DNA from: Bacteroidia bacterium
GTDB taxonomy: Bacteria; Bacteroidota; Bacteroidia; B-17B0; Aurantibacillaceae
Direction of reading: 5' to 3'
Length of the DNA stretch: 54,055 bases
NCBI GenBank assembly: GCA_021740825.1
Contig: JAIOZA010000020.1
Coordinates: forward strand, 1 to 54,055
A model generated the notes under the pieces. It did no database searches. It saw nothing but the letters and a program-made list of their open reading frames with translations, and was not told where the DNA came from. Below, one piece after another: positions 5,696 through 12,757 of the stretch. Made by a program: the position numbers and the translations under genes. How positions within the stretch are numbered: the first letter of the stretch is position 1; each line of letters opens with the position of its first letter.

Positions 5696-6199
5696 TTATT
5701 CTCGTGTTAGTTCTGTTATTATTTTGGTATGCTGCGGGAATAGCTGAATTAGTAAATGCCTATTTGCTAATTCAAAATCATTAAAATCAAAACCAGGATA
5801 AACTGTGCAGCCAACTAATGAAAAATTACCATGATTATACACGCGCGAACCAAACCATGTATTGGCTTTTACCGTATATTGAAAAGTTTCATCTTTTAAA
5901 ATAGTAGAACCAATTTTAGTAATATTCAAATTTCCATTTGCATCAATTTCAACAACTTCTAAAGCATCACCATAATAAAAATGCCAGGTTTCATCACTTT
6001 TTATTTTGTGCAATGCAGAAAAATTTCCTTTTTCAATTAAAAAATAAATGCCTGTTGCCATATTTCTATCACCATTAAAATTAGGTGATAAATAGGATTG
6101 TGGAATTTTTCCTTCCGAACGATAGGTTTCTTTATAGTAACCACCTTCAGGGTGAGGAAGCAAATGCAGTTCTTTAACTAAAGTATCAACTGTTATCAT
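5696..6199 (-). CDS. DUF985 family cupin protein
   Basis: A 167-residue cytosolic single-domain RmlC-like cupin of the DUF985 family (Pfam Cupin_5). The N-terminus (LHLLPHPEGGYYKETYRSEG) is the family signature, followed by IYFLIEKGNFSALHKIKSDE with the beta-strand His and ending in CTVYPGFDFNDFEL, all typical. Members have been crystallised but the substrate is unknown for most; a sugar or small-molecule epimerase/isomerase-like role is only suggested by the fold. Its stop is separated from nothing conserved downstream; the start lies 1 bp from the metH stop region, so it is probably cotranscribed behind metH (6201-9914). A truncated second copy lies 3.1 kb away at 2586-2730. Confidence 0.9.
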   Translation of the reverse strand: MITVDTLVKELHLLPHPEGGYYKETYRSEGKIPQSYLSPNFNGDRNMATGIYFLIEKGNFSALHKIKSDETWHFYYGDALEVVEIDANGNLNITKIGSTILKDETFQYTVKANTWFGSRVYNHGNFSLVGCTVYPGFDFNDFELANRHLLIQLFPQHTKIITELTRE

Positions 6200-6200
6200 A

Positions 6201-9200
6201 TTAATAAGCTAAAACACTACCTAACCAACGTTCTACTTCTTCTACTTGCATATTTTTACGTTTTGCGTAATCTTCTATTTGTTCTTTGTTTAGTTTACCG
6301 ATCCCAAAATAGTGAGATTGAGGATGTGAAACATATAATCCGCTCACCGCAGCTGTTGGAACCATTGCTAAACTCTCTGTTAAAATAATACCGGTGTTTT
6401 TTTCAACATCCAACAATTTCCAGATAGTATTTTTCTCGGTATGATCTGGTTGAGCAGGGTAGCCCGGAGCTGGGCGAATGCCAGCATATTCTTCCTTAAT
6501 TAAATCTTCATTTTTATAATTTTCATCTTTGGCATAGCCCCAAATTTCTGTACGAACTTTTTTATGCATTAATTCTGCAAAGGCTTCTGCTAATCTATCT
6601 GCCAATGCTTTCAACATAATTGCACTGTAATCATCATGATCTTTTTCCAACAGAGCAACGTGCGCATCTATGCCAATTCCTGTGGTTAGTGCAAATGAAC
6701 CAATGTAATCTTGCTTCTCGACTCCGCTCGAAGTGACAACTTTTGGTGCAATAAAATCGGATAAAGCTAAATTATATTGTCCTGCTGGTTTTTTGCTTTG
6801 TTGACGTAATGAATGGAATGTGGCGATTACATTTCCTTTTTCATCATACACTTCAGTGTCATCATGATTTACTGTGTTGGCGGGATAAATACCAATGACA
6901 GCATTTGCTTGTAGCCATTTCTCAGAAATGATTTTACTCAACATTGCTTGCGCATCATTAAATAATTTTGTGGCTTCTACACCACGACTTACATCCGTTA
7001 AAATTTTTGGATACGAACCTTTTAATTCCCAGCTATGAAAGAAAGGCGTCCAATCAATATATTCTGAAATTTCTTTTAAATTATAATTTTCAAATACTTT
7101 AGTTCCAATAAAATTTGGTTTAGCAATTTCTGTTTTATTCCAATCTATTGGAAATTTATTTTCTCTGGCTTCTGCCATCGAAATTAATTTATTTTGAGAC
7201 TGCGCATTTTTATTTTGTTCACGCACACGCTCGTAGTCTTTATTGATGTCTGCCATAAATGCATCACGTAGTTCGTTTGAAATTAAACTACTTGCTACAG
7301 GAACTGATTTACTGGCATCATTGACATGAATCACTGGACCAGAATAATTTTGTGCAATCTTAACTGCTGTATGCACTTTAGAAGTTGTTGCGCCGCCAAT
7401 CATTAATGGTAGTTTAAAATTTAAACGTTCCATTTCTTTGGCTACATGAACCATTTCATCTAATGATGGCGTAATCAAACCACTTAAACCAATAATATCA
7501 ACGTTGTGTTTTTTTGCTTCTTCTAAAATTTTATCACAAGATACCATCACACCTAAGTCGATGATTTCATAATTATTACAAGCCAAGACAACGCCTACAA
7601 TGTTTTTTCCAATATCGTGTACGTCGCCCTTTACAGTTGCCATTAAAATTTTACCTGCGTTTGTTCTACCGTCGCCAACAATACCAGCTTTAGCATTATC
7701 TTCTTTTTCTTTTAATAAATAAGGTTCTAAATAGGCAACCGCTTTTTTCATCACACGGGCGCTTTTCACAACTTGCGGTAAAAACATTTTCCCACTTCCA
7801 AATAAATCTCCAACCACATTCATACCATCCATTAAAGGACCTTCAATTACATGTAATGGTCTGCCTAATTTTAAGCGAGCTTCTTCAGTATCTGCATCAA
7901 TATGTTCTACTAAACCTTTTACTAAGGCATAACTTAAGCGCTCTTCAACTGTTCCTTTTCTCCATGCTTCGTCTTTTTCTGTTTTCTCCTTGGTAATTCC
8001 TTTTAAGGATTCAGCATGATCAACCAATCGTTCTGTTGCGTCATCTCTTCTGTTTAATAAAACATCTTCAACTAATTCTAACAATGTTTTTTCAATGTCG
8101 TCATACACTACTAATTGAGCTGGGTTTACAATTCCCATATCCATTCCGTTTTTAACAGCATGGTATAAAAAAGCAGAGTGTATGGCTTCACGCACATGGT
8201 CATTTCCTCTGAAAGAGAAAGAAACATTACTTACGCCGCCACTTACTTTTGCATATGGTAAATTTTCTTTAATCCATTTGGTAGAATTAAAAAAGTCTAA
8301 GGCGTTTAAGCGATGCTCTTCCATACCTGTTGCAACAGGAAAAATGTTTGGATCGAAAATAATATCTTGTGCAGGGAAATGAACTTTATCTACTAGCACA
8401 TCATAAGCGCGTTTACAAATTTCTTTTCTGCGTTCAAATGTATCTGCTTGTCCAACTTCATCAAAAGCCATTACAATAACTGCGGCGCCGTATTGTTTTA
8501 TTTTACGAGCTTGCTCTATAAATTTTTCTTCACCTTCTTTTAATGAAATTGAGTTAACAATTGCTTTTCCTTGAACGCATTTTAGACCGGCTTCAATCAC
8601 GCTCCATTTACTAGAATCGATCATAATAGGCACACGAGAAATATCAGGTTCAGAGGCAATTAAATTTAAGAATGTTGTCATGGCTTGCTCGCTATCCAAC
8701 ATACCTTCATCCATGTTTACATCAATGACTTGAGCGCCACCATCAACCTGGTCTTTAGCTATAGATAAAGCTTCTTCAAAATTTCCTTCTTTAATTAATC
8801 GTAAAAATTTTTTAGAGCCAGTTACATTTGTTCGCTCACCTACATTTAAAAAATTACTTTCAGGTGTTAGCGTGTAAGGTTCTAAACCACTTAAATGCAT
8901 TAAAGTATCAGGTTGAGGTTTTTTGCGAGGTTTCGCATCTTTGGCTATTTCAGCAATGCGTTTAATATGGGCAGGAGTTGTTCCACAGCATCCACCAACA
9001 ATATTTAAAAATCCTGCTTTTAAAAAATCTTCAATTTGATGCCCCATTTCATGAGCATCTTGGTCGTATTCTCCAAACTGATTTGGTAAACCAGCGTTTG
9101 GATAAGCACTTACGTAAAAAGGCGCTTTATTAGAAAGTTCTTCTAAATAGGGACGCATATCTTTAGCACCTAGGGCACAATTTAAACCTACGCTTAATAA

Positions 9201-9914
9201 ATCAACGTGGGAAACTGAATTTAAAAAGGCTTCGGTTGTTTGTCCTGATAAGGTTCTTCCACTGGCATCAGTAATGGTTCCTGATACCATCACTGGCATT
9301 TTTTTATCAATTTTTTCGCAATAGTTTTGTATAGCAAATAAGGCCGCTTTGGCATTAAGTGTATCAAAAACAGTTTCAATTAATAATAAATCGGCTCCAC
9401 CATCAATTAATCCGCGCACTTGTTCGGTGTAAGCTTCAACTAATTCATCAAATGTTATTGCTCTAAATCCAGGGTCGTTTACATTTGGTGATAAAGATAA
9501 AGTACGATTGGTTGGTCCGATTGCGCCTGCCACGAACTTTGGAATAGCGGCAAATTCAGGGAATTCTGTTTTAAATTCAGTAATGGCTTCTTTTGCAATT
9601 TTAGCCGATTCAAAATTTAATTCATACACAAACTCTTGCATATCATAATCCGCCATAGCAATGGTTGTATCGCTGAACGTATTCGTTTCAATAATGTCAG
9701 CGCCTGCTTTCAAATATTCTTTATGAATAGTTTTAATGATTATTGGCTGAGTAATTGATAGCAAGTCATTATTTCCCTGCAAATCTTTATGCCAATCGGC
9801 AAAACGTTTTCCTCTGAAGTCTTTTTCAGTTAATTTATATTGCTGTATCATGGAGCCCATTGCTCCATCAATCACTAATACTCTTTTTTCTAATTCTTGT
9901 CTAATTGTATTCAT
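6201..9914 (-). CDS. metH: Methionine synthase, cobalamin-dependent
   Basis: Transfers a methyl group from 5-methyltetrahydrofolate to homocysteine through methylcobalamin in the cytosol. All four modules are in one 1237-residue chain: homocysteine-binding barrel (about 1-325, zinc ligands in GLNCALG and GGCCGTT), pterin-binding barrel (about 350-620), cobalamin cap and Rossmann domain (about 650-890, with DVHDIGK and lower axial His766), and the C-terminal AdoMet-dependent reactivation domain (about 910-1237, with [15 protein letters not shown]). Length equals E. coli MetH. A SAM-I riboswitch and terminator lie directly upstream, so expression should fall when SAM is plentiful. The DUF985 gene follows at once. 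The organism must obtain or make B12; no cobalamin genes are in the window. Confidence 0.98.
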
Positions 9915-9929
9915 TTTTTTATAATAAAA

Positions 9930-9959
9930 AATCCCTTCTGTTTTGAGTCAGAAGGGATT
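9930..9959 (-). terminator. Riboswitch expression-platform terminator of metH
   Basis: On the minus strand an 11-bp stem (AATCCCTTCTG / CAGAAGGGATT) with an 8-nt loop is followed by TTTTTATTAT. It sits between the SAM-I aptamer and the metH ATG, only 15 nt from the start codon, and is the expected off-switch formed when SAM is bound. Confidence 0.9.
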
Positions 9960-9999
9960 AGTGTGTTTTTATATTATTTTATATTACTAATTGTTTCCG

Positions 10000-10167
10000 A
10001 CTTATTTTCCCTAATTTAGTTAGGACGAATTCCCACCTTCTTTAAAATTTAAGAAATAAGATTTAAGAAGTAAGAATTTTATATCTCACTTCAAACTTCC
10101 GACTTCTTATTTTCTAAGGGTTGGTAAAGCTTCATAGGGCGTATCCCTCGGCTTTTCTTAATAAGTG
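10000..10167 (-). promoter_or_regulatory. SAM-I (S-box) riboswitch upstream of metH
   Basis: Read on the minus strand: P1 5' strand ACTTATT, then GCCGAGGGATACGCCC-TATGAAGC, which is the conserved S-box core, then ACCAACC, a long P3 arm, the GAAGGTGGGAATTC segment, a P4 hairpin CCTAA/TTAGG, and GGGAAAATAAGT closing P1. Order, spacing and conserved bases agree with SAM-I riboswitches. The P3 arm is enlarged by an AAGTAAGAA-type simple sequence (about 10035-10110). With the terminator at 9930-9959 it should repress metH when S-adenosylmethionine is abundant. Confidence 0.93.
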
Positions 10168-10390
10168 TGTTAAAGAACTAGCAACAAATTTACTATATTT
10201 TTTAGTTATAATTTTAGTAATTAATCAAATTTATTAACAGAGCTTTAATGACGAACAATTTGTAAAAAAGTATTATTGATTTTTTGTTAAAGTTAATATG
10301 ATTTATAATATTTTCCAAAAAGCTCAATATAATATAATTTCTGATTTTTTAGGATTAAGAGAAGGAACTATAATTATTTATTATAATTGT
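10168..10390. other. AT-rich leader/intergenic sequence
   Basis: About 220 bp between the metH riboswitch and the stop of the next gene. Very AT-rich, with no gene or convincing hairpin. It should hold the metH promoter on the minus strand just above 10167; no clear TAnnTTTG element was confirmed. Confidence 0.5.
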
Positions 10391-11851
10391 TTAATATTTT
10401 ATTAAAATTAAATCATTATAATTTTCTTTCCAATACAATGGATTTCCAATTGATGGATAAGTTCTAAAACTAATATTTTTTCCATATATTTCAGTTACAA
10501 TTCCAAAAATGAATTCACCATATATTGTTTTATACTTTATCATGTCTCCAATTTTAGCTGATTCAATATCTTTATATTTTCCTTCAGTATATTTCTTTTC
10601 TATTAAAACTTTATCTATTAATAACTCATCGATGGTTTTTATAATTGGTTTTTGCACTTCTATTTTTTGATTTAAATCACTTTGACCTAAATTTTGGTTC
10701 CAAACGAATGAGTATTTTTCTTTTTTAATGGGTAAAATTATCTCTAATTTATCAGTCTTTTTATATTTAATATTTACATAACCATTTAATCTTTGATTTG
10801 GAAATATAGTATTGGTCTTTAAGTAACCTTGGTTAATAGATTCTAAAATTTGATACTGCTGATTAATGAATTTATTAACATTACTACTAGCATTTTGTCT
10901 TGCGTAATAATTAGCGGTAGCGTCATAAATATTAGTCGTTGTATTTGCAGAAAATTTAGAATAAGTTCGTACATTACTACTTACGCTGCCATATGTATTA
11001 CCGAAAAAACCTGATGAAAATCCATTCGATTGACTCTGACTAGAGTATTTTGTTTGTGAGTTTACTGATGAATAGCCTGCGTTATTCGCGTCACTATATT
11101 CACCAAGGGCAACGAAAAAGGTATTCCATGATTGCCTTCTATTTACTTTTTTAATGTATTGTTCAAAAGTTAAAACTGGTGCAATTGTATTTTCGTTTAC
11201 TAAAACTGATTGGATGCTCTCAGGGAAAAAGTCAAGTCGACTATTACTATAATTTTCAATGGAAATATATGATGTATAATATTGTCCATAATTACTTTCA
11301 ACTGAAAGGTGCATGGCGATAATTAAACCCTTATGAATATAGAATTGCACAACTTTACCTTCTTTGTAAAAAAAACCTTTTTCTTTTACAGGAGTTGTTT
11401 CCAGTAAATTAATATAATTTAACGAGTCGATTTCCTCAGTGTTTTTATTTAAAGTGATTCCATAAAAATTAAATAAATCTGTGCATAAGTCTATTTCTTT
11501 TGTATTAATTGGTATAGCACTAAATGTTAAAGAAAAATATAATACATCGTTTTCATTGTCAAATTCATGAAATGAAGGGCAATAAGGAATATTTACTGAA
11601 TTCAAAAGTTTATATTTATTTTTGATTGCAACATCTTTGATGAAGGATTCTTCTGATATACAAAGTTTTTTATTGGATTCAGATTTATGTACATATTTAA
11701 GAAAAACAAAAGTCATCGAATCAGTTAATGCTATTTGCATTATTTCACACTGAGGATTATCTGAACTTTTAAAATGAGGTCTGCGAAATTGAGCATAAGT
11801 CGAGGTAAAAATTAAAGTGAAAATTAAGAAGTATGTATTTTTAAGCAACAT
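10391..11851 (-). CDS. Hypothetical secreted protein, Ser/Asn-rich centre
   Basis: A 486-residue protein with a signal peptide (MLLKNTYFLIFTLIFTSTYA, cleaved before QF). No family recognised. Residues about 30-235 look like an ordered domain of mixed strands; residues about 250-320 are low-complexity and rich in Ser, Asn, Tyr and Gly (SSQSQSNGFSSGFFGNTYGS); residues about 420-486 (KYKDIESAKIGDMIKYKTIY...) resemble a small beta-barrel, SH3-like fold. No T9SS sorting domain or lipobox is present, so it is probably periplasmic or outer-membrane associated. It lies between metH and a diverged SAM-I-like element, whose orientation is right to lead into this gene 217 nt upstream. Codon use is AT-rich like the neighbours. 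Confidence 0.65.
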   Translation of the reverse strand: MLLKNTYFLIFTLIFTSTYAQFRRPHFKSSDNPQCEIMQIALTDSMTFVFLKYVHKSESNKKLCISEESFIKDVAIKNKYKLLNSVNIPYCPSFHEFDNENDVLYFSLTFSAIPINTKEIDLCTDLFNFYGITLNKNTEEIDSLNYINLLETTPVKEKGFFYKEGKVVQFYIHKGLIIAMHLSVESNYGQYYTSYISIENYSNSRLDFFPESIQSVLVNENTIAPVLTFEQYIKKVNRRQSWNTFFVALGEYSDANNAGYSSVNSQTKYSSQSQSNGFSSGFFGNTYGSVSSNVRTYSKFSANTTTNIYDATANYYARQNASSNVNKFINQQYQILESINQGYLKTNTIFPNQRLNGYVNIKYKKTDKLEIILPIKKEKYSFVWNQNLGQSDLNQKIEVQKPIIKTIDELLIDKVLIEKKYTEGKYKDIESAKIGDMIKYKTIYGEFIFGIVTEIYGKNISFRTYPSIGNPLYWKENYNDLILIKY

Positions 11852-12067
11852 GATTATTGATATTTATTAAATTTAAATAATGCTGAATTATAATTATTGT
11901 TTATTGAAAATTTAACCGAAGTGTAATACGCTAGAAAGTACAAGTAAAGATAAATATTAAAAGTTATAAACGCATTTAATTTATTATAGTAGTTTTATTT
12001 AACAGACCTGTAATTTTTAAACTGATAAAACTTGTACAAATTAACAGGTGCAAATGGCTTTATACTA

Positions 12068-12248
12068 CTAGTTTATTTCTGAGCATTTTTATTAAACCAA
12101 ATTGAATTCCCAATTTCTCATAAGTAACAAAGTGTAAAAACTACTATAGTTGAGAAAGTTGCTTAATATCCAAATATTTTAACAAACCAAGGATTAGTAA
12201 AACTTCACTGGGAACATTCCTCTGCTTTTTTTAAATAAGTGTTAAAGA
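12068..12248 (-). promoter_or_regulatory. Diverged second SAM-I riboswitch-like element
   Basis: On the minus strand this region parallels the metH riboswitch over its whole length: CTTTAACAC-ACTTATTT at the 5' end, AGCAGAGGAATGTTCCCAGTGAAG against GCCGAGGGATACGCCCTATGAAG, then TTTTACTAATCC against TTTACCAACC, and about 120 nt further AAATTGGGAATTC against AAGGTGGGAATTC, ending near GAAATAAACT against GAAAATAAGT. The GGG/CCC pairing has become GGAA/TTCC, so a hairpin is kept, but several normally invariant bases (GCCC, AACC, GGTG) are altered and P1 pairing is weakened. It is either a decayed copy or a variant that no longer binds SAM. No clear terminator follows, though ACCTGT/ACAGGT at about 12007-12049 could pair. 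Confidence 0.65.
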
Positions 12249-12331
12249 TCCGCGGAAGAAGATATAACTATTTATGTAAATTTATAGGATATTGTCAGGG
12301 TCTAATTATTAACATTTTTACTTTTTCTAAA

Positions 12332-12757
12332 ATGAAAAAACTATTGATTATTTATTGTTTGTTTTGCGGCTTAAGTCTTCTTGCTCAAAGGCAAAGTAAA
12401 GCCGTAAATCAAGTTTTAACAAATATAAAAACGCAAGAAGATTCATGGAATAAAGGCGATGTTAGAGGCTTTATGGATTATTATTGGAAAAACGATAGTT
12501 TAAAATTTATTGGTAGCAAAGGAATTACCTATGGTTGGCAAAAAACGTATGATAATTACATAAAAGGTTATCCCAATAAAGATGCTATGGGAGTATTAAT
12601 ATTTACCATTAAAGAAATTACTCAACTATCTAAAACAAGTATTTATGTTATTGGTCAATGGGAATTGAAAAAAGAAAAACCGGCTGGAGGGTATTTTACT
12701 TTGCTTTGGAAAAAAATAAAGGGACAATGGGTTATTGTTTCGGATCACACAAGTTAA
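12332..12757 (+). CDS. Secreted DUF4440/SnoaL-like (NTF2-fold) protein
   Basis: A 141-residue exported protein with a signal peptide (MKKLLIIYCLFCGLSLLAQ) and a single NTF2-like domain of the DUF4440/SnoaL type: the pattern QEDSWNKGDVRGFMDYYW ... SLKFIGSKGITYGWQKTYDNY ... GYFTLLWKKIKGQWVIVSDHTS is characteristic. Such cone-shaped domains bind small molecules or act as isomerase/ketosteroid-like scaffolds; function here is unknown and it is probably periplasmic. The longer frame from 12239 is rejected as start because it would run into the riboswitch-like element and because the ATG at 12332 begins a perfect signal peptide. Followed closely by the DUF1653 gene, likely in one transcript. Confidence 0.8.
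   Translation: MKKLLIIYCLFCGLSLLAQRQSKAVNQVLTNIKTQEDSWNKGDVRGFMDYYWKNDSLKFIGSKGITYGWQKTYDNYIKGYPNKDAMGVLIFTIKEITQLSKTSIYVIGQWELKKEKPAGGYFTLLWKKIKGQWVIVSDHTS

Follow-up and report, generated by a model that had tools for sequence, protein, structure and literature searches.

Leader A, the minus-strand segment at 12068-12248, is homologous to the SAM-I (S-box) riboswitch leader. It is very probably the original leader of the methionine synthase gene metH, stranded at its old place as a riboswitch relic, presumably inactive and not regulating the orphan protein gene that now lies downstream. The window, by which we mean the whole stretch of DNA analysed (G000:C35:1-54055, 54,055 nucleotides), belongs to a draft genome of 2.95 Mb in 58 contigs that is 87.6% complete. 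It holds a second and intact leader, B, which is the sole RF00162 match reported in this genome.

Cis-regulatory RNAs can leave pseudogene-like relics, in which constraint is lost after the regulated gene has been lost, and leader A resembles them in appearing to have lost its constraint after the loss of its gene. It provides a clean riboswitch fossil, with a seemingly dead and a living leader of one gene lying close together in one genome. The leaders of 26 relatives polarise its changes, so that the parts which fail after gene loss become visible. It also illustrates that a leader-like sequence next to a new gene does not necessarily control it, and A itself gives no hint of being a novel type of riboswitch. 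A limited literature search found no particular published riboswitch relic with which A could be compared; a claim that such relics are unreported is not supported by that search.

Layout of the locus

The features of the locus are collected in Table 1, with genomes of the relatives denoted by G numbers. The metH leader of relatives adjoins the same DUF4440-like gene that lies upstream of A. At 10050-10115 of leader B lies the distal P3, a part that is mostly long, A+T-rich and freely variable across species in the family's metH S-boxes; the metH leaders of G014, G018 and G055 have a short one.

Table 1. Leaders, promoter elements and genes between metH and the DUF4440-like gene (positions in the window).
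Feature	Position	Strand	Content or basis
Leader A, 5' half	12189..12248	minus	P1 5' strand, J1/2, P2, P2b, P3 5' side
Leader A, distal P3	12125..12188	minus	alignment; closest G002 (63%), G003 (62%)
Leader A, 3' half	12068..12124	minus	P3 3' strand, GGGAATTC block, P1 3' strand; hand alignment
Ancestral promoter flank of metH leader (beside A)	12249..12333	minus	alignment with relatives
-7 box of A (TATCTTTG here reads TATCTTCT)	12264-12257	minus	
Leader B, intact SAM-I (S-box) riboswitch adjoining metH	9999..10167	minus	Rfam, 57.4 bits
Intrinsic-terminator-like site of B, ahead of metH (expression platform)	9930..9959	minus	terminator scan
Promoter flank of B	10177..10266	minus	exact TAnnTTTG at 10192-10185
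Orphan protein gene between A and B, 486 aa	10391..11851	minus	
metH, B12-dependent methionine synthase	6201..9914	minus	
DUF4440-like gene	12332..12757	+	24.0 bits, just below the Pfam cut-off of 25.2

By eye, the orphan protein has a signal-peptide-like start and a middle rich in Ser, Asn and Tyr. Proteins similar to its N-terminal part (to about residue 147) occur in 7 of the 99 other genomes that were searched, and the window's genome has a further, weak match at C24:3582-3917. The orphan gave nothing over the cut-off in Pfam and no match in NCBIfam or among PDB sequences. A role as carrier of a mobile element was considered and set aside, as no relative was found in viral contigs or genome contigs in a search able to detect close relatives only. 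Downstream of A, TATCTTTA at 11952-11945 is a possible start signal for an orphan transcript.

Homology of leader A to the S-box

The earlier note had described A as following the metH S-box along its full length on the minus strand, and this is borne out. Leaders A and B can be aligned end to end, with a global score of 60 against a shuffled mean of -8.9 and none of 1000 dinucleotide shuffles as good; the local alignment has a z of 9.5, and its score is reached by none of 1000 dinucleotide shuffles of A. In a proper alignment the similarity is therefore beyond chance. The lead CTTTAACAC, the GAGG..CCC..TGAAG core and the GGGAATTC block all lie where the note had placed them. Its proposal that the GGG/CCC stem has become GGAA/TTCC holds only in part: full pairing would leave a loop of just two bases (TG), so that at most GGA/TCC can pair, and alignment to the model R1 in the homologous register leaves two of the three P2b pairs intact.

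R1 is a covariance model of the 5' half of the leader (60 positions), built from the leaders of 18 relatives and from no sequence of the window. On the window it gives 89 bits to leader B and 44.2 bits to leader A (E 1.3e-7); the next-best place scores 13.9 bits there and 20 bits in the whole genome. The score alone is no proof of homology, since a place in G020 that we judge to be a different element reaches 35.8 bits as a control. Homology of A is confirmed by the R1 score together with synteny and promoter flank, which carry the rest.

A search of 9800-12700 returned no match of the Rfam SAM model to A at E<=10, so that A stays below the RF00162 gathering cut-off, which B exceeds. This failure is a weak test, as the metH leader of G015 also falls under the cut-off (39 bits, the weaker of that genome's RF00162 matches). 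Other Rfam matches in the same stretch (three microRNA families, the rnk leader and ncr1175) were far under their cut-offs and were discarded. Judged by eye in the alignment, the homology of A reaches further than noted at both ends: on the upstream side it spans the promoter flank as far as the DUF4440 gene (about 12332), and on the downstream side it continues to about 12050.

Leader A occupies the ancestral place

An RF00162 match that exceeds the cut-off is present in every one of the 20 genomes of the genus sample, the window's own included. Among the 19 others, 17 have a single S-box directly between DUF4440 and metH, and these 17 are all the genomes in which one contig can be followed from DUF4440 to metH. 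The exceptions are G019, whose contig starts in the leader flank, and G008, where a 354-aa gene separates DUF4440 from the only S-box and the contig ends just inside metH. Because G008 also has an inserted gene there, the gap between DUF4440 and the S-box must have been entered at least twice in the genus. The G008 gene (L064, 390-1454 minus of G008:C323) has what we take to be a helix-turn-helix-like start and a Fic-type motif. None of the 18 other genomes in which the interval from DUF4440 to the leader is visible has an orphan gene between two leaders. A second SAM-I match is present in 14 of the 20 genomes; the window's genome and five others have a single match, perhaps because they are incomplete.

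The promoter flanks were compared in an alignment of A, B and the leaders of 26 relatives (28 loci were listed, and G008 and G047 were dropped since no metH start was matched). The flank of A is 67-81% identical to those of G017, G004, G012 and G003, which are 74-85% identical to one another; over 85 columns the values are 78-81% to the first three and 69% to G003. The flank of B, in contrast, is only 41-46% identical to these four and 74% identical to G009, G005 and G019. Mean identity to the latter three versus the former four is 71% versus 38% over the 60 nt at 10266-10207 and 86% versus 48% over those at 10236-10177. As far as about 10030, leader B itself resembles the G009 type; behind that point it is equally like both types. 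The distal P3 follows the same division, that of A being closest to G002 and G003 and that of B to G011 and G009. Across 15 segments of metH (starts 6000-9500), identity is 82-91% to G003, with G012, G004 and G017 similar, and 79-87% to G009. metH is not cleanly of one clade, and in some segments G011 and G015 are as close as G003 or closer.

Leader A thus stands at the ancestral place with the ancestral promoter flank, B has a flank of another lineage, and the orphan gene lies between them; for these reasons we regard A as the stranded original leader and not as a fresh copy of B. The earlier note had offered a duplicated, decaying metH leader as one reading, and the decaying metH leader survives in our account. 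The duplicate does not fare as well: that A arose as a copy of B by tandem duplication and has been decaying since is unlikely. The two are clearly homologous, as such a copy would be, but the flank and distal P3 of A are of a different lineage type from those of B, and the ancestral neighbour DUF4440 adjoins A and not B. An old duplication followed by gene conversion is a possible origin of the pair. By eye, the alignment had suggested that a trace of the start of DUF4440 survives upstream of B; this was not substantiated, as 10250-10749 gave no match.

How the two leaders may have come about

For the stranding of the original leader we propose the following order of events, which we infer from the comparison of the loci. 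The ancestor would have had DUF4440 and metH as divergent neighbours with one S-box ahead of metH. In the lineage of the window, the orphan gene, a second promoter and S-box B would have come between the old leader and metH. In the simplest history the insert would consist of the orphan and the upstream part of B, and one of its junctions would fall within leader B or close to the metH start. It probably arrived by recombination with a related lineage bearing the flank type of G009, G005 and G019. Leader B, with its promoter and terminator, would now serve metH. Leader A would have lost its terminator and its gene; its -7 box, P1, the base of P3, P4 and two SAM-contacting bases have changed. 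The inserted stretch has no clear terminal repeats; a 16-nt repeat (D11, 10234-10249 and 11999-12014, 88%) lies near both of its ends.

The order leader-orphan-leader could instead be an artefact of joining two strains in assembly, a prospect raised by the draft state of the genome, by two promoter flanks of two lineage types and by the low G+C content (0.21-0.31) between about 10000 and 12250. We consider this very unlikely, for if two working leaders had been wrongly joined, the changes in A of letters that are otherwise invariant would be left unexplained.

Decay of the conserved core and of the helices

Leader A shares with SAM-I riboswitches (RF00162) their common ancestry and the place beside DUF4440 held by the metH S-box of relatives, and its P1 5' strand, P2, parts of P2b and the GGGAATTC block can still be recognised. 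It differs from them in lacking an Rfam match, in the damage to P1, P3 and P4, in two altered SAM-contacting positions, in having no terminator that could be found and in no longer being followed by metH. Over the 52 columns of the 5' half that are gap-free in the 26 relatives and B, A is changed at 8 of the 42 core columns invariant in all of these sequences, and of the 10 variable columns just one sets it apart from its clade. It departs from the majority at 9 columns, compared with 0-5 in the relatives and B. Two further differences lie outside these counts, namely one extra U in J1/2 and two bases fewer ahead of P1.

The substitutions include G11 to A in J1/2 and two on the 5' side of P3 (model C45 to U and model C48 to U). 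The residues in contact with SAM we take to be G11, C44, A45, A46, U57 and G58 in crystal numbering. By hand mapping, G11 is A and C44 is U in leader A and the other four are unchanged. On the 3' side, GG has become AU in P3 with the loss of two pairs, and the nine columns compared in the 3' strand of P1 show one deletion and two substitutions.

Altogether there are 14 changes over 78 compared columns (18%), one of them a gap, and 9 fall in the 44 paired columns. With P4 excluded and the 3' pieces aligned by hand, 17 of 22 pairs are kept. The same changes dealt at random keep 18.3 on average and at least 17 with a probability of 0.95 (20,000 trials); when the simulation is given more freedom, the mean falls to 16.1 pairs, and 42% of cases reach 17 or more. 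Nothing in the helix pairs of A points to selection for pairing. Divided by hand among the helices, the kept pairs are 5 of 7 in P1 (with the deletion), 5 of 5 in P2, 2 of 3 in P2b and 5 of 7 in P3. P4 is not recognisable in the alignment with relatives, and the four-way junction of P1, P2/P2b, P3 and P4 is not preserved in A.

Folding as a single strand, which the earlier note had suggested as a check, gives A a z of +1.39 (188 of 200 shuffles as good) and B a z of -3.25 (2 of 200). For the -7 box we take TAnnTTTG as the consensus; it is exact in B and in 19 of the 26 relatives, has one mismatch in the remaining 7 and two in A. A terminator scan of the minus strand, confined to loops of 3-8, detected that of B and none behind A, and hence no terminator-type expression platform ahead of a regulated gene. 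The inverted repeat at 11996-12056 was rejected as a terminator, as it has no run of U and the stretch folds like its shuffles (z +0.49).

Does leader A still act?

Some observations speak for residual constraint. Fourfold sites of metH differ by 0.47-0.52 from the four members of the clade, against 18% for the core of A, from which it follows that A either began to decay only late on the branch or is even now under some weak constraint. All pairs of P2 are present, and two bases of the SAM triple have altered together (model C45 to U and G11 to A). This mild divergence, the intact P2 and the joint change are the main arguments for a live variant.

The earlier note had also proposed that A is a ligand-variant aptamer that now controls the secreted orphan. 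A precedent is the spermidine riboswitch, described as a ligand variant of SAM-I with 13 representatives near polyamine genes, altered in J1/2 and the P3 loop and equipped with a terminator in the tested ldcC example (PMC10853860). Ligand variants of SAM-I are characterised as keeping the architecture and global fold (PMC10853860). Leader A shares the strand of the orphan and is located on its 5' side, and its changes in J1/2 and the internal loop of P3 recall the spermidine variants; the likeness is confined to these changes (PMC10853860). The joint change in the triple and the intact P2 would likewise suit a new ligand. However, A is a single case with broken helices and no terminator found, whereas the spermidine class, as there described, recurs with its fold kept (PMC10853860). 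Retention of pairs at the random level and a fold no better than shuffles do not give the picture of a kept architecture around a changed binding core. P1 has lost 2 of its 7 pairs with a deletion, two P3 pairs are gone and P4 is unrecognisable, and the two-mismatch -7 box and the empty terminator scan also weigh against control of the orphan. That A is such a ligand variant is accordingly highly improbable.

A related proposal is likewise highly improbable: A would be an aptamer peculiar to this lineage and of new specificity, its SAM triple jointly turned from G-C to A-U and its P1 paired in a shifted register, and it would regulate the secreted orphan. A candidate for such a shifted P1 can be drawn (UUAUUU with AAAUAA at 12078-12073).

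Leaders of the same kind in the family

A ligand variant might be expected to recur, and the earlier note had looked to relatives for covariation. R1 was run on 87 family genomes, the window's own included, with stricter filters that may miss weak copies, and it matched in 76. No variant like A was found among the weak matches in the 86 other genomes. Besides A, four matches lie below 50 bits, and three of these, in G044, G107 and G028, are ordinary SAM-I riboswitches with 92.2, 73.9 and 72.8 bits in Rfam; the fourth, in G020, is most likely unrelated. The letters examined among all family matches were those of these four and of the metH leaders of the 26 relatives, and neither recurrence nor covariation of A emerged from them.

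The place in G020 (L133, G020:C2:44089-44289) was considered as a second decayed S-box and rejected. Its relatives in G035 and G044 (L134 and L135) share spaced ACCACTTA-like repeats and lack an S-box core, and none of the three places has an Rfam match; it is for this reason most likely another element. These upstream regions carry the repeats about 21 nt apart, three in G020, three in G035 (one with a changed base) and two in G044, and the array looks like a set of binding sites for a regulator. Behind the repeats come a TAnnTTTA-like site and ACGTTCTTT; G020 and G035 then show, by eye, a stem resembling a terminator.
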